A DNA stretch of 37,865 nt, taken from the NCBI GenBank assembly GCA_002792315.1, contig PFOB01000055.1, positions 1 through 37,865 of the forward strand, given 5' to 3'. Positions 28,129 to 37,865 of the stretch are shown here, one piece after another (within the stretch, counting starts at the first letter, position 1; each line of letters opens with the position of its first letter). The stretch is from Candidatus Roizmanbacteria bacterium CG_4_10_14_0_2_um_filter_39_13 (lineage in GTDB: Bacteria > Patescibacteriota > Microgenomatia > UBA1406 > GWC2-37-13). Under the pieces are notes generated by a model. The model had not been told where the DNA came from. It was given only the letters and a program-made list of their open reading frames with translations, and ran no database searches. The position numbers and the translations under genes are program-made.

Positions 28129-29751
28129 ATGAAAGATGAATTATTTTCTCAATCGGTGATAGATGAGTACCTTGAAAAAATTAGAAGGGCCTCAACGCTC
28201 GAGCTCTTGCATGATTATTTTGCAAAATCAAAAGAATGGCTTGACTGGCTTTTGTCTCATGGTTCAATCACACAAAGGTCGTACAAGCAATTGAAGCGTC
28301 AATTGGTTCTTCATGTCGAGAGTCGCTCTAAGCAATTGCAGAATTCTCCAAAAATCAAAGTGGAGATGAAAGGAGTATTTTTCGTTATCTTAATGATTAT
28401 TATATCTCTAGTTTTTTATTTTGTTTTTTTTCTTATCGACTGGCCTCGTATATTTCAAGTTTCTGAAGATACTTTTTCAAATCAACCTTCTGACAAACGC
28501 GTTCTGCCATTTCGTGGCATATTAAAAAATGCGGAAGGAACTGCCATTGATACAAAGCAAGATGTGTATTTTGCTCTTTACAACAGTCAATTTGAGGGAA
28601 CACCACTATTCACTGGTTTTTGTGTCGGCGAAGGGGGGATCACACCGGAATATAACGGAAGTTTTACCGTAACACTGGGAACAGACTGTGGAATGAAACC
28701 AATTTCAAAGTCCCTCTTTGATGAAAATAAAGCCCTCTATTTGGGGGTGCGAATTGGAAATGATAATGAAATTCAACCAAGGTATAAAATATCTACGTCC
28801 GGTTATTCTCAGGACACTGCCCTTTTGGGAGGCCTTCCGGCAGGAAAGATGAACTCGAGTATTCCGTATATTGATGAAAGAGGTGCAATAGTAATTGATT
28901 CAGAGACTCCAAGTATACAATCTACGGACGGAATTTTTAAAATAGAAGGGAAATCATTATCTATTCAAACGCTCGAAGATGGAGGAGGAGATATTATGTT
29001 TCAACCAGGAATTGGTGGGAATTCAATTGTTACGTCTGGAAATTTTGGTATAGGTGACTTAATTCCTCCGACTCGTCTTTCTGTTGTTGGGGTCGAGCCG
29101 TATTCAGCTATTGCAACATTTAAAAATATAGCACTTATTGACGAGGATCAAACATCAGTGCTTAATTTAGGCCTTGCAACAGATATTAATGGATCAAATG
29201 CAACCTACGTTAATTTTTATGCAAATGCTACAAAAGATACGACCGGAGAATTAGTTGGTTCTATTCGTTTAAACAAAAATCATGTGGTGTACGAAACATC
29301 AGGGGCAGATATTGCAGAATATTTTTCAGTAAAAGAAGACCGATCGTTTAAACCGGGGATGGTTATGACTCTTTCATCAAACGGCATTCATGCTGGAATG
29401 AAGGGAGAACCTGTAATTGGTGTCGTGACGGACACAGCGGGATATATTGGAAATGTCACTCGTGACAAAAATAATATATTAATTGGACTCATTGGCCAAA
29501 TAGAAGTGTTTGTTTCAGACATCAATGGAGCAATTCGAGCAGGGGATCGTGTGGGGTTGAGCTTGATTCCTGGTTATGGAGCAAAAGCGATCAGCGATCC
29601 TGAAACGGTTGGATATTTTCTTGAAGATATGAATGTTGACGCGTTAATTTTTTCAAATAATTTTTGTCCAATCGAGTATAAAAATGTCGTAACTATTTCA
29701 GGTTCATTAGTTCGTTGTGGCAGGCTTCATATACTTCTTCGCCCAAAATAG
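28129..29751 (+). CDS. membrane-anchored surface protein with peptidase-G2/IMC-like region
   Basis: TM (FFVILMIIISLVFYFVFFLI); SGADIAEYFSVKEDRSFKPGMVMTLSSNG...EPVIGVVTDTAGYIGN; TACAAT box 6 nt before ATG. Confidence 0.65.
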   Translation: MKDELFSQSVIDEYLEKIRRASTLELLHDYFAKSKEWLDWLLSHGSITQRSYKQLKRQLVLHVESRSKQLQNSPKIKVEMKGVFFVILMIIISLVFYFVFFLIDWPRIFQVSEDTFSNQPSDKRVLPFRGILKNAEGTAIDTKQDVYFALYNSQFEGTPLFTGFCVGEGGITPEYNGSFTVTLGTDCGMKPISKSLFDENKALYLGVRIGNDNEIQPRYKISTSGYSQDTALLGGLPAGKMNSSIPYIDERGAIVIDSETPSIQSTDGIFKIEGKSLSIQTLEDGGGDIMFQPGIGGNSIVTSGNFGIGDLIPPTRLSVVGVEPYSAIATFKNIALIDEDQTSVLNLGLATDINGSNATYVNFYANATKDTTGELVGSIRLNKNHVVYETSGADIAEYFSVKEDRSFKPGMVMTLSSNGIHAGMKGEPVIGVVTDTAGYIGNVTRDKNNILIGLIGQIEVFVSDINGAIRAGDRVGLSLIPGYGAKAISDPETVGYFLEDMNVDALIFSNNFCPIEYKNVVTISGSLVRCGRLHILLRPK

Positions 29752-30060: not shown

Positions 30061-30137
30061 ATACCTCTTAGCCTGTTGGGAAGAGGAACAAAAAAATGCA
30101 ATTGACAAGAGTTGTTTCAGATTCTAGAATCAAAACT

Positions 30138-32201
30138 ATGAGTAACCAATCTAAAATTTTAAACACCATCACGCAATATTTTGTGTATGGATTAGTCTTT
30201 TTATTTCCACTTTTCTTTCTTCCCATAACACGGGACTTTCTCGTTTATAGCAAGTTTTATTTTCTTGCCGCCGTGTTGTTTATTGTTTTATTACTTTCAC
30301 TCGGAAAGTTTTTACTCACCAAGAAATTTACGTGGGTTCACAATCTGGCAACCCAATCTTTGATACTCATATTGTTGTCATACGTGCTTTCCATCGTTTT
30401 AATGTCGCCAAATAAATTGCAGGCAGTTTTTAATCCACAATATGGGTTGATTCTGTTGACATCGATGGTTCTTCTCTATTTATATGCATCACATGCATTT
30501 GCACGAGCAAAAATATCTCCCATTTTACCAATTGCAGTATCTGGCTTGCTCGTTTCAGTACTTGCACTCATTGTCATGGTAGATCCATTTCAAGGCACCG
30601 AGCTGCCGGCATATTGGTCATTTCTTTCAAATACGACTTTTAATACTATTGGATCAAGTGTTCATTTCATTGCATTTTTAGTCTTTACTTTAGTTGGATC
30701 GTCCTTGTACATGTGGAGAACGTATGCTCGTTCCCGAGTGGTAAATGAAGCAAATAGAACCATGCTCATCATGCTTGGAGTCATTGTTCTCTTCACATTA
30801 CTTGCATTGATATTTCATGTGTTTATCGTTTCTCAGCAAATTCTTACCGAAGGTGCTCAAATTATTATTCCTCCCTTTTCACTTTCGTGGTTTGCAGCGG
30901 TCGAGGTATTGAAAAATCCGATGACTGCAATCTTTGGTGTTGGTGTAGACAATTTTTCATCTCTCTTTACGCAAGTTCGTACAGTCAATTACAATCTCTC
31001 AGATCTTTGGCAGGTGAATTCATTCAACACGTCTCGATCAACATTCCTTCATATTTTTACCGAACAAGGAATTTTAGGAGTCATTGGATTCAGCTTACTC
31101 ATTTCACTGTTTTTGAAAAATATGAAACATGTGAAGCTTGAGACTGCGGGAATGTTTATCACATCTCTTATTATCTTGGCAATACTTCCCCCAACTGGCA
31201 TTACCTTTTTCCTTTTCTTTGTCGCACTTGCGATGATGGCTGCAGACTTTCACAAGAGAAAAGAGCAGGAGGAGTATGTGATTGATCTTTCAACCCTTAC
31301 CCCAATATTTATCGGGATGATCGTAATCATTGCGCTCATTCTTGGTGGATCGGGATATTTCATGGGACGACATTTCATGGCAGAGTATTATTTCAAGCTG
31401 TCCCTCGATGCAGTCGCAGATAATAGTCTTCAGAAGCTGTATGAAAATCAAGCAAAAGCTTTACAGTACAATAACAATAGCGAAGAGTTTCATCGTCAGT
31501 TTGCTCAAACCAATTTGTTGGTCGCAAACAATATGGCATCGGTTGAGGCTGACAAGTTGACAGATCAAGATAGGGAGACCATTACACAGGCGATCCAAGC
31601 TGCTATCGTTGAAGCAAAGGCGGCAACTGCACTGAATCCACAAAAGGTAACAAATTGGCAGGCACTTGCAGGAGTGTATCGACAGATCATCAATGTTGCA
31701 GAAAATGCGCCGGTATGGGCAGTATCAGCATATCAACAAGCGATCGTGTTAGATCCTCGAAATCCACTTTTGAGACTTGACCTCGGTGGCGTATATTATC
31801 TCTTTGAAAATTACGATGAGGCACAAAAACTGTTTGAACAAGCAGTTTCACTTAAGCCTGACTGGTCAAATGCACATTACAATCTTGCCTGGACGTACTA
31901 TCAGAAAAAAATATATGGCTCTGCAGTAGACCAGATGCAAATTGTGGTCGGACTTCTTGATGCGGGTACGCAACCAGAAGACTATAAAGCAGCTCAAAAG
32001 AATCTTGATGAATTTAAAAAGACCTATGAAGAGGAGCTTGCTAAGATTGAACAAGAACAGGCAGCTCAAGGTGGTGATCAAGGGCAGCAGGGTTTAGCGC
32101 CAGCAGGTGAATTAAACTTACCCGTTGCTCCCGCCACTCAACTTGAAAAGAAAATTGAGCTTCCTGAAGAAGCATCTCCCGGAGCGGCAGTGGGTCAATA
32201 A
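30138..32201 (+). CDS. O-antigen ligase/Wzy-like polytopic protein with C-terminal TPR repeats
   Basis: ~10 TM helices; GVGVDNFSSLFTQVRTVNYN; TPR motifs (DPRNPLLRLDLGGVYYLFENYDEAQKLFEQAVSLKPDWSNAHYNLAWTYYQ). Confidence 0.78.
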   Translation: MSNQSKILNTITQYFVYGLVFLFPLFFLPITRDFLVYSKFYFLAAVLFIVLLLSLGKFLLTKKFTWVHNLATQSLILILLSYVLSIVLMSPNKLQAVFNPQYGLILLTSMVLLYLYASHAFARAKISPILPIAVSGLLVSVLALIVMVDPFQGTELPAYWSFLSNTTFNTIGSSVHFIAFLVFTLVGSSLYMWRTYARSRVVNEANRTMLIMLGVIVLFTLLALIFHVFIVSQQILTEGAQIIIPPFSLSWFAAVEVLKNPMTAIFGVGVDNFSSLFTQVRTVNYNLSDLWQVNSFNTSRSTFLHIFTEQGILGVIGFSLLISLFLKNMKHVKLETAGMFITSLIILAILPPTGITFFLFFVALAMMAADFHKRKEQEEYVIDLSTLTPIFIGMIVIIALILGGSGYFMGRHFMAEYYFKLSLDAVADNSLQKLYENQAKALQYNNNSEEFHRQFAQTNLLVANNMASVEADKLTDQDRETITQAIQAAIVEAKAATALNPQKVTNWQALAGVYRQIINVAENAPVWAVSAYQQAIVLDPRNPLLRLDLGGVYYLFENYDEAQKLFEQAVSLKPDWSNAHYNLAWTYYQKKIYGSAVDQMQIVVGLLDAGTQPEDYKAAQKNLDEFKKTYEEELAKIEQEQAAQGGDQGQQGLAPAGELNLPVAPATQLEKKIELPEEASPGAAVGQ

Positions 32202-32295
32202 GTGAGTAAATGTAGTATTGAGTATGTGGTATTTAGTATACTTTTTTCATTTTTTCTCATTGACTCCTTAAGTGAATTCATGGTTTAATGAGAGT

Positions 32296-33120
32296 ATGAA
32301 TCTTCGAATACTAATTGCTTTATTCTTATCATGCATATTCGCGAGCATGCTGTTTGTTCCTAAAGCCTCTGCCTCAAACCTCATACCCATATCTCTGTCA
32401 TTTTCTTTAGAGAAGAAACCTTCAATCGGAGCGATTGTTTCACGTGACCAAGATGGATTTAGACTTACAAACGTCAAATATGACACGCAACTTACTGGGG
32501 TAGTGGTTGAAACATCGGATTTGATCATGAAATATGAGGAGGATGTACCGGGAGTCTTTACTGATAGGTATATTGTTTATGGAGGCGAAGCCAAAGTATT
32601 GGTAAACGACACTAATGGAATCGTCAAAAAAGGCGACTATATAACCGCATCAGATAGGCCTGGAGAAGGAATGAAGGCAGATCGAGATGGGATTGTGCTC
32701 GGAATTGCTGTTGAAGACATGGTGATTAATGAAGGGAGTGCAACCACGATGGTTCTCGTTGCAATAGACCCACGATTTTCGACACTTGATAAATCACTTA
32801 TTGCAGAAGATCTCATTTTGAAATATGGTATCTTTGGACCGATTATTAAAGCGATACTTGATATTTTTCAGGTTGCTCCAGAAAAGCTTGCGCAGACTCC
32901 GCCGATTTTTCGATACACTTTGTCGATTCTTCTTCTGATTGTCACAATACTGTTTGGATTTGTCTTATTTGGACGAGTTGCGCTGAGAGGTATCGAATCT
33001 CTGGGAAGAAATCCTCTAGCTCGTTGGACAATACTTTCAGGAATCGTCATTAATATCACCTTTGTTACTATCATGATCGCATTTGCATTATTTCTCTCAT
33101 ATATTATCTTGACCATATAA
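32296..33120 (+). CDS. exported membrane protein with surface-protein-like beta domain
   Basis: Signal peptide MNLRILIALFLSCIFASMLFVPKASA; C-terminal TMs; shares GDxI..S..PG.G.KA..-type segment with the 28129 CDS. Confidence 0.65.
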   Translation: MNLRILIALFLSCIFASMLFVPKASASNLIPISLSFSLEKKPSIGAIVSRDQDGFRLTNVKYDTQLTGVVVETSDLIMKYEEDVPGVFTDRYIVYGGEAKVLVNDTNGIVKKGDYITASDRPGEGMKADRDGIVLGIAVEDMVINEGSATTMVLVAIDPRFSTLDKSLIAEDLILKYGIFGPIIKAILDIFQVAPEKLAQTPPIFRYTLSILLLIVTILFGFVLFGRVALRGIESLGRNPLARWTILSGIVINITFVTIMIAFALFLSYIILTI

Positions 33121-33247
33121 ATAAAATCTTCAGAAGTATGGATTGTTTTATGTTGATACAACAAGATATGATAAGCTATATTTTTAAAGAAAGTTTAAAA
33201 TGAGCAATCAGTATTGAAACGATCGTTTCAACTTCATTTCTTTACAC

Positions 33248-33580
33248 GGTGTCATCCGCCAGTTGGCGGATCCATGTCTATACTGGATCCCCGCAGGAGT
33301 TTATTCCGATGAATATCGGGACGAGGATGACAATATGCTTGTGTCATTCCCAGCTTGACTGGGAATCCATTCTTTATACTATGTCAACAGCATGGTTCCC
33401 CTCCGGAGCCTGTCCTCGATCTTCGTCGGGGAAGGGGATGATAATTCATCTCCAGTGTGTGGTTTGATGAAAATCATTCTTGCCTTACACAGTGTCATTC
33501 TCAGATTCTGCTTGGGAATCCAAGTCTTATCTGGATCCCCGTCTTCACGGGGATGACAATATGCTTGTGTCATTCCCATA
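33248..33580. repeat. second cluster of dispersed palindromic repeats
   Basis: ATCCGCC-AGTT-GGCGGAT; 50-bp inverted copy of the 29972-30021 unit; GGATGACAATATGCTTGTGTCATTCCCA twice. Confidence 0.8.
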
Positions 33581-33715
33581 AAACCAGAAATCAAGACGAG
33601 AAATATATAGTACTAAATCTGTAAATAAACTTGTTATGCATTGTCACATCAATATATTTTAAGTTCAAATAATATACTCAATATAGACTTATAATATGAA
33701 AAATAGACATCAATC

Positions 33716-33776
33716 GTGTATTTTGGCTCTATTGAGCCAAAATACACTTGACATGCAAGGTTGTTTTATGTTTATA
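33716..33776 (+). promoter_or_regulatory. promoter with upstream perfect palindrome
   Basis: GTGTATTTTGGCTC-TATT-GAGCCAAAATACAC (14-bp arms) abutting TTGACA (33748-33753) N17 TTTATA (33771-33776). Confidence 0.65.
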
Positions 33777-33810
33777 TGAAGGTATACGACAATGTTTTGA
33801 TACCGTGATC

Positions 33811-36702
33811 ATGAAAAAAAAATACACCCTATCACCAAAAGAGTTTGCAAAGAGAGTTGGAGTGTCTTCTTCTACCGTTCGGAGATGGGAGAAAGAAAAG
33901 ATTATAGGATCTACACGAAATTCTTCAGGGTATCGCCTGTTTGCTGCATCAGATATAGAGGTTGCTAAACAGCATAGCAACAACCTATTTAAGGAAAAAG
34001 TCAATAGAGGCAAAGATCAATTGGTCACAAAAGAAGATGCAGATGTTTTGGGAATTACGGGAACAAGAATTCCGTGGACCAAAACTCATTATATTACTGC
34101 TGCAACAATATGTGTCATACTTTCATTGATCGTCATTAAGTCAGGTTTTCTTTTCAATACAACAAAATCTGATGCAGAACAGGTATCAGACGCATCTCAC
34201 CATACGAATCAATATATAGGGAGTGAATCTTTTGGAAAGAGAACATCTCTTTCAAACGTGCTTGCTGCAGAGTCAGATGCCTTACGAAAAAAAATCCTGA
34301 GTAATGTTGCATGGGAGTTTCGGGGTTCTTTAGACAATCCTGCAATTACCGTATTTGGAAGCTCCGAGTTTATAGGAGATATAAACGCAGATGGGTACAA
34401 TGTGAACCTTGGAACGGGAAGGTTGACTGCTTCAAATGTAGTCTATTCGATTACCGCAGGTGATGGGCTTGCTCTGACAGGAACTCAGGACGTCGTTCTT
34501 GAAAACAAGGGAGTTTTGTCCCTTGGTGACTTGACGGGAAACGTAGAGTTTGAGGCAGGAAGCAATGTCTCAATCTCAGCGACAGGCAATAAAATCACTA
34601 TAAATAGCTCCTACACAGATACGAAATTTACTGCTGGAACAGATCTTGACCTTTCAGACACGGTGTTTTCTCTCGAAACAACAATAGATTCGGTTACTGC
34701 TATCAATTTTCCTACAGGTGCAGTGATAACCGGAACAGACACAACGATCAATCTTTCATACTTTGATGTTGCCTCAGATGGCTCAACGACGATTGGCAGC
34801 ACTCTTCATGTGAGTGGGAACGTGGGCATTGGGACGACAAACTCACGTGCTTCGCTGGATATATCTGGCACCGATGGGGCGATCATCCCCGTAGGTACCA
34901 CGGCACAAAGACCAAGTATTCCGTATACAGGGACGATTCGTTACAATAGCACAACCAGTCAATTTGAAGGGTATAGTGCCAGTAGTTGGGGCTCTCTGGG
35001 GGGCTTAATTGATGTAGATCAAGATACGTATATCATTGCCGAAAACAGTGCAGGAGCTGACAATGATCAACTCAGGTTTTATACTGCAGGATTTGAAAGA
35101 ATGGCAATTGGGGCTACTGGATATGTCGGAATCGGAGGCACGGCTCCACTAACTGCTTCATTTTTGTATGTCGGGACAAACGGATTTGTCGGCATCGGAA
35201 CAACAGATCCAACATACAAACTTGATGTCATCGGAACCGCCAGAGTGACGTCCACTCTGAATCTTTCATCTCTTACTGCAAGCAGACTTTTATCTACTGA
35301 CGGATCAAGTAACGCTGCAGTAGTATCTGACCTCACCAGTTGGATCGCAGGAACAAGTAATCAAATCACCGCAACCAGTGACGGAGATGGGACGCTTACC
35401 TTATCTCTTCCCCAAAATATTCACAGTGGAGCATCTCCTACATTTACCGGACTTACGCTCTCGGGACTGGGGATAGGAGTCGTACAAAGTAATGTGAGCG
35501 GTGTACTTTCAAATAACCTTGGAACATTAAACTATCTCACCAAATGGGATGCAAACGGAATCACCAATTCAAATGTATATGACAATGCAGGAAGTGTAGG
35601 CATAGGTGGAACAGCGCCAGCCACAGCCCCAAGGCTTTATGTCGGAGCAAATGGGAATGTTGGAATAGGGACGACTGCGCCAGGGGCGAAGCTTGAACTT
35701 GCTGGAAACCTTTTGTCATCAGGAGTATTTCAATTTGGTGGAGGAAGTAGTGTTTTGGGATATTCACGCATAGGAATCGGTTCCACTGCCCCATCAACCG
35801 GAGCAGATGCGGGAAGTCTGATCGACTCATCAGAAGATTTATATATAGCAGGAAATTTACACGTAGCAGGATCATTCAAAACTCCCTACGCACAAATAAT
35901 CACGGTCGCAAAAAGTGGAGGAGACTTTACAACTATAAATGCAGCTTATACCTATGCAAAAACACTCACGCCAAGTGCAACAAATCAAATCCTTATTAAG
36001 GTTATGCCGGGGGTTTATAGCGAACGTTTAACTCTGGATACTTCGTACATCTCGCTATCCGGCGATACTAGGGATACAACAAAGATGACGTATACAGCTG
36101 ACAATTCGACCAATGCAACGATATATTCAGCAAGTGCAATTATAGGTGTAACTATTTCAAATATGACTGTTGAAACAACGACGAATGGGTATGCGGTAAA
36201 CCTTACCAATGCGAATCCGACAATATATCTTCAGAACAATAAACTAATTGATGCAACAGCATTTTTTGGTATTCAAAATAACAGCTCAAATGCCTATTTC
36301 ATAAACAATATTATTTATGGTCAACGAATTCAGTCAAGTGCTGGAACATATAAAGATAATGATTTTCAGGGTGGAGCATATGGTATACAGGCATCGGGAG
36401 GTACCTTTATTGGGAATAAGATATCTAGTTTGGGGAATACTGGTGGAGTCTATATTGATAATTACATTTCGTTTGTAGACAATATTAACGGCGCTTCTAC
36501 GTTTAGAAATAATTATTTTGCTGGTAATGTGAGAGTAAGTAATACATCTGGAACAGTAGTGTTCAATGGGGATAGAATTAATGGCCACTTGTACACGACA
36601 AATGCATCCTCGATTGCATATCTTGCTAATGCTACAGTGAATGGAAGTGTCACCTCGTATTCTGGTGGAGCCTCAGATGCAGGGACTATTTTATCTATCT
36701 AA
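33811..36702 (+). CDS. MerR-type HTH, TM helix and extracellular tail-fibre-like/beta-helix adhesin
   Basis: MKKKYTLSPKEFAKRVGVSSSTVRRWEKEKII...GYRLFAASDIE; TM YITAATICVILSLIVIKSGFLF; GNVGIGTT repeats; right-handed beta-helix-like segment. Confidence 0.8.
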   Translation: MKKKYTLSPKEFAKRVGVSSSTVRRWEKEKIIGSTRNSSGYRLFAASDIEVAKQHSNNLFKEKVNRGKDQLVTKEDADVLGITGTRIPWTKTHYITAATICVILSLIVIKSGFLFNTTKSDAEQVSDASHHTNQYIGSESFGKRTSLSNVLAAESDALRKKILSNVAWEFRGSLDNPAITVFGSSEFIGDINADGYNVNLGTGRLTASNVVYSITAGDGLALTGTQDVVLENKGVLSLGDLTGNVEFEAGSNVSISATGNKITINSSYTDTKFTAGTDLDLSDTVFSLETTIDSVTAINFPTGAVITGTDTTINLSYFDVASDGSTTIGSTLHVSGNVGIGTTNSRASLDISGTDGAIIPVGTTAQRPSIPYTGTIRYNSTTSQFEGYSASSWGSLGGLIDVDQDTYIIAENSAGADNDQLRFYTAGFERMAIGATGYVGIGGTAPLTASFLYVGTNGFVGIGTTDPTYKLDVIGTARVTSTLNLSSLTASRLLSTDGSSNAAVVSDLTSWIAGTSNQITATSDGDGTLTLSLPQNIHSGASPTFTGLTLSGLGIGVVQSNVSGVLSNNLGTLNYLTKWDANGITNSNVYDNAGSVGIGGTAPATAPRLYVGANGNVGIGTTAPGAKLELAGNLLSSGVFQFGGGSSVLGYSRIGIGSTAPSTGADAGSLIDSSEDLYIAGNLHVAGSFKTPYAQIITVAKSGGDFTTINAAYTYAKTLTPSATNQILIKVMPGVYSERLTLDTSYISLSGDTRDTTKMTYTADNSTNATIYSASAIIGVTISNMTVETTTNGYAVNLTNANPTIYLQNNKLIDATAFFGIQNNSSNAYFINNIIYGQRIQSSAGTYKDNDFQGGAYGIQASGGTFIGNKISSLGNTGGVYIDNYISFVDNINGASTFRNNYFAGNVRVSNTSGTVVFNGDRINGHLYTTNASSIAYLANATVNGSVTSYSGGASDAGTILSI

Positions 36703-37865
36703 TACGAGTATCACTGGTTCTATTAGTTCATATCTAACAGTTAATGATGCAAGCAATACTTATTCTGACATTGCGTCGAGATCGACAATCTACAATAATT
36801 CTGCAAGTACATCATTAAATGTTTATCAATCCGGAGTTGGTGACATTCTCAATCTTTTTGACGGTACGACAGAGATATTTAGCGTTCTTGATGGTGGAAA
36901 TGTAGGGATAGGAAATACAACCCCTTCCTATAAACTAGATGTTTCCGGAACAGGAAGGTTCACGGGAGATCTCAGGCTCACTGGAGCACTGTATGATTCA
37001 ACAAGTGGTGCAGGATCAACAGGATATGTCCTTACCAGTACCGGAACCGGAACCAGCTGGAATACCTTAGCTTCAGCTGGAATAGTCTCAGGAACAGGCA
37101 CAGACAATTATCTGTCCCGTTGGAATACTTTAGGAACAGGAATAGAAAATGGGACGCTCGTAGACAATGCAACGGTCGGAACCTCACTCAATATTGATTC
37201 TTCAAACAATGTCGGTATAGGAGGAACCGCAGCAAGTACCAGACCAAGTCTGTATATTGGGGCAAATGGGAATGTGGGTATCGGGACCACGGCTCCGACA
37301 GAGAAATTAGATATTGCTGGTGGCAGCATAAATATTGCTCAAACAGCTAATTATGGTTTGAAATGGGGCAGTCTCTATAATGCATTTGTTATGGACCCTG
37401 TTGATTTAACTCCGCTCTACATCACAGGTGGTAATGCACACGTTATAATTGACTCCAATAACAACACTACTGATGGCTATTTCTCAATTAGGAAAGACAA
37501 TACATCAAGAGCCACTTCAGCGGAATTGTTTAGGGTTCAAGAAAACGGCAACGTCGGCATCGGGATCACAAATCCTACCTCAAAACTTCATGTCTCCGGA
37601 GACATCAGAGTAACCGGTGCATATTATGATAGTACCAATGCAGCAGGATCAACAGGATATGTCCTTACTTCAACCGGAACTGGAACATCATGGAATACCT
37701 TAGCATCAGCAGGTATCATCTCAGGATCAGGAACAGATAATTATCTTGCACGATTTAACTCCTTAGGAACAGGGATAGAAAATAGGACGCTCGTAGACAA
37801 TGCAACAGTCGGAACATCACTCAATATTGATTCTTCAAACAATGTGGGAATCGGTGGAACCGCAG
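36690..37865 (+). pseudogene. out-of-frame continuation of the fibre protein, running off the window
   Basis: Open +1 frame FYLSNTSITGSISSYLTVNDASNTYSDIASRSTIYNNSAS...VGIGTTAPTEKLDIAGG; no stop to window end. Confidence 0.65.
37008..37865 (+). repeat. two diverged ~230-bp coding repeats
   Basis: AGSTGYVLTSTGTGTSWNTLASAGI(V/I)SG.GTDNYL.R.N.LGTGIEN.TLVDNATVGTSLNIDSSNNVGIGGTA at 37008-37234 and ~37631-37865. Confidence 0.85.

Follow-up and report, generated by a model that had tools for sequence, protein, structure and literature searches.

Two groups of regulators provide the closest comparison for the DNA-binding part of the protein described here. BldC and RacA are small, soluble MerR-like helix-turn-helix (HTH) proteins, and the BldC operator consists of tandem direct repeats. 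Membrane-bound regulators of the ToxR/CadC type combine a cytoplasmic N-terminal DNA-binding domain, one transmembrane (TM) helix and a domain outside the cell, and MerR is not named as a family in the text of the paper on this type (PMC10269533). For the associated genes, the nearest described systems are the F1-like X0 ATPases of mycoplasmas (Types 2 and 3), in which the normal ATP synthase is accompanied by a second F1-like operon, a proton path is lacking, and a membrane protein with a signal peptide, an ectodomain and two C-terminal TM segments occurs together with linkage to surface proteins (PMC3369863, PMC12994834). The same papers report no equivalent elsewhere (PMC3369863, PMC12994834), and in 2026 the F1-like X0 ATPase was still called mycoplasma-specific (PMC12994834).

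The stretch of DNA analysed here (the window) comprises all 37,865 nucleotides of contig PFOB01000055.1 of Candidatus Roizmanbacteria bacterium CG_4_10_14_0_2_um_filter_39_13, a member of the class Microgenomatia of the Patescibacteriota. The parts of its locus have known relatives in ToxR/CadC-type regulators, BldC/RacA HTHs and mycoplasma X0 ATPases; their combination is undescribed in the open-access papers searched, in which no account of an HTH-bearing fibre together with an F1-like ATPase was found, including for CPR. The favoured reading, to which we assign a likelihood slightly better than even, is that a membrane-tethered autoregulator is itself the fibre of a surface machine and co-controls F1-like ATPase genes.

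A single open reading frame (ORF), 33748-36702 on the forward strand, encodes a MerR-type HTH, a TM helix and a fibre. Its first codon, TTG 33748, coincides with the -35 hexamer TTGACA of the promoter, so the true protein start is ATG 33811, the first sensible start of the gene and one kept in relatives; by the ORF list and orthologues, the first frame thus covers 33811-36702 (+, 963 codons). The reading frame shifts at approximately 36.65-36.70 kb, and the fibre resumes in the other frame, in ORF 36641-37865 (+), up to the contig end; because the contig terminates within the gene, the fibre C-terminus is not recoverable. The frame change may reflect assembly error, decay, phase variation or a programmed frameshift. 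In the G061 orthologue, which lies on a 940-kb contig, the frame also changes, elsewhere in the gene (L013:3075-3139, as compared with 36640-36702 in the window).

At the N-terminus, residues 5-46 (33823-33948, +) form a winged HTH identified by Pfam, AlphaFold, Foldseek and phmmer against the PDB. It passes the Pfam cut-offs for both MerR (PF00376, 38-40 bits against a cut-off of 28) and MerR_1 (PF13411), is modelled at pLDDT 97, and by these scores and its MerR fold belongs to the MerR family. Foldseek matches include SoxR, RacA-DNA, NmlR, CadR, GlnR and BldC, and RacA is the closest solved sequence (E 6e-5). One TM helix follows at residues 91-116 (34081-34158, +; hydropathy, and an AlphaFold helix at pLDDT 89), so that a DNA-binding domain and a TM helix stand in one chain, as in transmembrane regulators; this is also the outcome of the AlphaFold topology check that the sequence-only reading had proposed. 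Beyond the membrane, comparison of relatives delineates a conserved neck domain (34258-34620, +), which starts with VLAAES and continues to LTASNVVYSITAGDGLALTG; it is succeeded by VGIGTT-type fibre repeats (34800-35860, +), recognised in the sequence and by PHROGs virion and tail-fibre families. The final stretch (35863-36699, +) is pectinesterase-like in a weak phmmer match (3uw0_A, E 1e-4) and gives no hit in Pfam; as pectinesterases are a right-handed beta-helix family, a beta-helix is probable here. The HTH, TM helix and VGIGTT repeats that the sequence-only reading had placed in one polypeptide are accordingly upheld, and its beta-helix has this weak match in its favour. Within the neck, a VL[A/G] motif (34258-34275 in the window) lies 30-60 residues past the TM helix in nearly every one of these fibres, whether or not they bear the HTH, and is a possible processing site.

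Of six other species in the genus, three have an orthologue of the fibre, and a search with the neck matched 39 of 281 genomes of the class Microgenomatia. The survey for HTH-TM-fibre proteins that had been suggested from the sequence was carried out on this basis: 30 of 50 neck-sharing fibres of the class, taken from those genomes and related ones, start with a MerR HTH. The other 20 include one that is cut short N-terminally and two with a different HTH-like N-terminus (judged by eye), and since 20 of 50 lack the MerR HTH, the fibre can work without it. Among aligned HTH-fibre members PF00376 matches all 23, and residues T22, R24, R25, W26 and R42 are invariant, which answers the earlier question of whether HTH residues are conserved. 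Mean entropy in this alignment is 1.3 bits in the HTH versus 2.5-2.9 in the linker, TM and post-TM regions, and, when the window is compared with G062, dN is 0.71 for the TM helix as opposed to 0.15 for the HTH; these sequence comparisons support purifying selection on the HTH. In each examined genome with several fibres (the window's own, G061, G234 and G320), only one fibre was seen with an HTH. A recent, genus-specific HTH fusion, suggested by family-level searches, was overturned by the class-wide neck search, and a contig scan of genomes with query A2 returned no architecture beyond known relatives. In another genus, L015:1-2849 encodes two HTH domains and a TM helix together with a collagen-like GPTG fibre, and a gene resembling prepilin peptidase lies nearby.

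Immediately upstream of the fibre lies a partner gene (32272-33120, +; ATG at 32296), whose family recurs beside these fibres and whose product consists of a signal peptide, an extracellular beta domain and a C-terminal hairpin of two TM helices. The N-terminal beta domain resembles phage decoration proteins and is also found within giant fibre ORFs. The hairpin carries a GRNPLA loop, of which GRNP is invariant in the family; it has the two-TM form with an RNP/RQP polar loop that marks subunit c of ATP synthases, and its sequence is homologous as well. Matches to PF00137 are weak and mostly full-length, in about 10 genomes; profile-profile comparison links the family to the canonical c of the same genomes (hhalign 96.5%); all nine of nine PDB profile matches are c subunits; and the model superposes on a c subunit with a TM-score of 0.88 and an rmsd of 1.3 over 67 columns. 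The ion-binding carboxylate in TM2 is absent in 31 of 31 sequences. Sequence and model evidence together point to a diverged subunit c, and an alternative role as a tail-fibre chaperone was dropped once the c-subunit homology emerged. Family matches, some of them to the ectodomain alone, occur in 190 of 379 genomes of the phylum. Further upstream are a membrane protein with TPR repeats (30096-32201, +; Pfam, synteny), a syntenic and genus-specific neighbour, and, in the same region, a 540-aa protein with a Peptidase_G2 domain of the phage pre-neck appendage type (28129-29751). The VGIGTT repeats and the decoration-protein-like c ectodomain recall phage tail fibres and capsid decoration proteins; unlike these, the genes are chromosomal, conserved in synteny across the phylum and membrane-anchored, and a prophage origin was rejected on the phylum-wide chromosomal synteny.

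Most loci have an operon that begins with the c-like gene and runs c-like, b, delta, alpha, gamma, beta, epsilon. In a single operon taken as an example, Pfam confirmed alpha, beta, gamma, delta and epsilon, and Walker A is retained in nearly all alpha and beta subunits of these F1-like (type-B) operons. Subunit a was found in none of the operons examined, and, of 32 genomes checked, 11 gave no PF00119 match; elsewhere in the genome there may be a subunit a that has diverged very strongly. Given that no subunit a was found and that the c-like protein lacks the ion-binding acid, the type-B ATPase would not be able to act as a proton-driven synthase. In most of the 32 genomes the canonical ATP synthase, including a and c, occupies a separate locus, the type-B and canonical beta subunits fall into distinct groups with 100/100 support, and in 10 of the 32 the only gamma gene is of the diverged non-pumping type, usually beside a surface fibre. 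The complex therefore resembles F1Fo ATP synthase in its Pfam-assigned alpha, beta, gamma, delta and epsilon subunits and in gene order, and departs from it in the missing subunit a and c carboxylate, the ectodomain on c and the separate clade. With the mycoplasma X0 ATPases, whose X0 sectors are compared here by published description, the Patescibacterial operon shares the features listed above; it differs in having a recognisable c homologue as membrane subunit, in retaining b and delta, and in the attachment of an HTH fibre. Second, diverged F1-like operons are present at L106, L109, L151-L153, L168 and other loci, and at L106:6627-7577 a protein with a Fic domain and an HTH lies between fibre and ATPase operon, an arrangement seen in several f18 genomes.

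This operon is linked to the HTH fibres. Among 29 loci identified by searching only for the fibre or HTH, drawn from related genomes and hence not fully independent, the c-like gene adjoins the HTH fibre in 19 and lies within two genes of it in 25; in 27, c-like or F1 genes are at most three genes away. A phylum-wide c-like search located HTH fibres beside the operon outside Microgenomatia too. In the window genus, the HTH fibre and c-like pair stands apart from F1 genes, beside the TPR membrane protein, and the copies linked to the operon are paralogues whose fibre has no HTH (L168 of G061; contigs C37 and C13 of the window's own genome).

Upstream of HTH fibres, the motif AAACTTGGACA is strongly enriched, often as 10-bp direct repeats at the transcription start. 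TTGGACA occurs 32 times in 38 such regions, which again come from related genomes, against a shuffle mean of 1.7 (maximum 6 of 200), and 0 times in the upstream regions of 15 HTH-less fibres; upstream of c-like genes the figures are 22 versus 2.5. Same-strand copies at 10-bp spacing number 11, against 0.02 in shuffles, and AAAC flanks of the motif emerged unasked. Sites are present in at least five families and in approximately 45% of HTH-fibre upstream regions; many fall downstream of the -10 and ahead of the start codon, a position in which a bound protein would obstruct transcription. The motif is missing from the window's own promoter and from the window genus, and the HTH-bearing loci L104, L105, L107, L153 and L159 have no copy near the start. 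The enrichment supports real DNA binding and autoregulation in the relatives, and we infer from it that an HTH of this family would bind AAACTTGGACA, although the sites could serve another regulator. Autoregulation, which had been raised as a possibility for this gene, thus gains sequence-level backing for the family through the AAACTTGGACA repeats and none from the window promoter, where the motif is absent.

The window promoter itself, TTGACA-N18-TTATAT (33748-33777, +; -35 at 33748-33753, -10-like hexamer at 33772-33777), is conserved in four species. A perfect palindrome with 14-bp arms, GTGTATTTTGGCTC-TATT-GAGCCAAAATACAC (33716-33747, no strand assigned), directly abuts the -35, exactly as had been noticed from the letters, and is the sole perfect hairpin in the window with arms of at least 11 bp and a loop of 3-12. 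Its suggested role as an operator did not survive comparison: the left arm is missing from three orthologous promoters (G061, G062 and G064) even though the promoter is kept there, and the genome holds no second copy, allowing up to three mismatches. A family-wide operator is thereby ruled out, and, as the palindrome is not conserved, it is probably not the operator. It is restricted to the window's species and partly present in G062, where the hairpin loop reads AATA, the reverse complement of TATT, as after loop inversion or template switch. A conserved leader block (AARGNATAYACCAAACTTT-like; 33778-33799, +), defined from orthologous promoters, sits just after the -10 and, by position only, is the candidate operator of the window genus. 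The classical MerR arrangement, an operator within a 19-20 bp spacer, is not seen here; the spacer measures 18 bp and the relatives' sites follow the -10. In the 5' intergenic region, 33240-33600 is an interspersed repeat-like stretch (gtcattcc...ggatcc), and G062 and G064 have similar stretches upstream of their fibre.

The mechanism favoured here builds on the architecture, conservation, gene linkage, motif enrichment and carboxylate loss established above at the level of sequence. The protein would span the membrane once and have its N-terminus on the inner side, the BldC/RacA-like MerR HTH lying in the cytoplasm and the long fibre outside. It would share the layout of ToxR/CadC-type regulators and differ from them in its MerR-type rather than OmpR-type HTH, its giant external repeat fibre and its F1-like ATPase linkage; with BldC, RacA and other small MerR-like HTH proteins it would share fold, sequence and a candidate tandem direct-repeat operator, with the difference that the HTH is here tied to a membrane fibre. 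The fibre may be a component of a Patescibacterial surface machine that also includes the c-like, ectodomain-bearing membrane subunit and, for the majority of lineages, an F1-like ATPase (b, delta, alpha, gamma, beta and epsilon), fibre and ATPase presumably forming one machine. As a built-in autoregulator, the HTH would bind tandem AAACTTGGACA sites at the transcription start and repress both the fibre gene itself and the divergently oriented ATPase operon, with expression then following the amount or state of membrane-inserted fibre; repression, fibre feedback and the sign of the response are all putative. Gene content further invites a more tentative proposal, possible rather than probable, of a phylum-wide ATP-driven rotary surface machine, in which F1 would turn a non-pumping, ectodomain-bearing c-like ring, thereby moving or working the fibre, and the DNA-binding domain of the fibre would report machine state to its own promoter.

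Several other readings share part of this evidence. The surface-contact sensor of the sequence-only reading, in which fibre tension or ligand binding would alter DNA binding by the HTH and switch a wider regulon, draws on the fact that a single membrane-crossing chain carries both HTH and fibre, and on the operator-like sites of relatives; the linker and TM helix are poorly conserved, however, and signal transfer from fibre to HTH is putative, which leaves this reading unlikely, if worth keeping in view. Rather doubtful is a variant in which the fibre is cut at VL[A/G] and regulation is left to the HTH-TM stub by itself, perhaps once intramembrane proteolysis has taken place. In the 23 aligned sequences V150 is kept in over 90%, L151 in all, and A or G follows in nearly all; the motif, which resembles the (-3,-1) motif of signal peptidase, is present in HTH-less fibres too, but its position some 30-60 residues beyond the TM helix is unusually far for signal peptidase I.

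Roles other than transcriptional control fare less well. RacA, being the closest solved sequence and also high in the fold search, brings to mind a DNA tether, with the HTH anchoring the chromosome or a locus at the fibre site; the clustering of the motif at -10/+1 of the fibre's own promoter and its absence upstream of HTH-less fibres are repressor-like and render such a tether improbable. RodZ, an HTH-TM protein whose HTH is used for MreB, offers a precedent for a structural anchor that binds protein rather than DNA, yet the invariance of DNA-contact-type arginines and of the wing, together with the existence of a matching DNA motif, makes this explanation very improbable. The membrane-tethered autoregulator remains the reading preferred here.

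Hardly any Patescibacteria are cultured, and their attachment to hosts is largely obscure. It is an open question what makes CPR genomes retain ATP-synthase genes when they have no respiratory chain (discussed in PMC8080830); that the only F1 gamma gene in 10 of 32 genomes is of the non-pumping type would offer a direct answer in these lineages. A fibre with its own repressor would represent a new way of tying gene expression to the assembly of surface structures, and with the predicted operator the model can be tested in vitro without culturing the organism.
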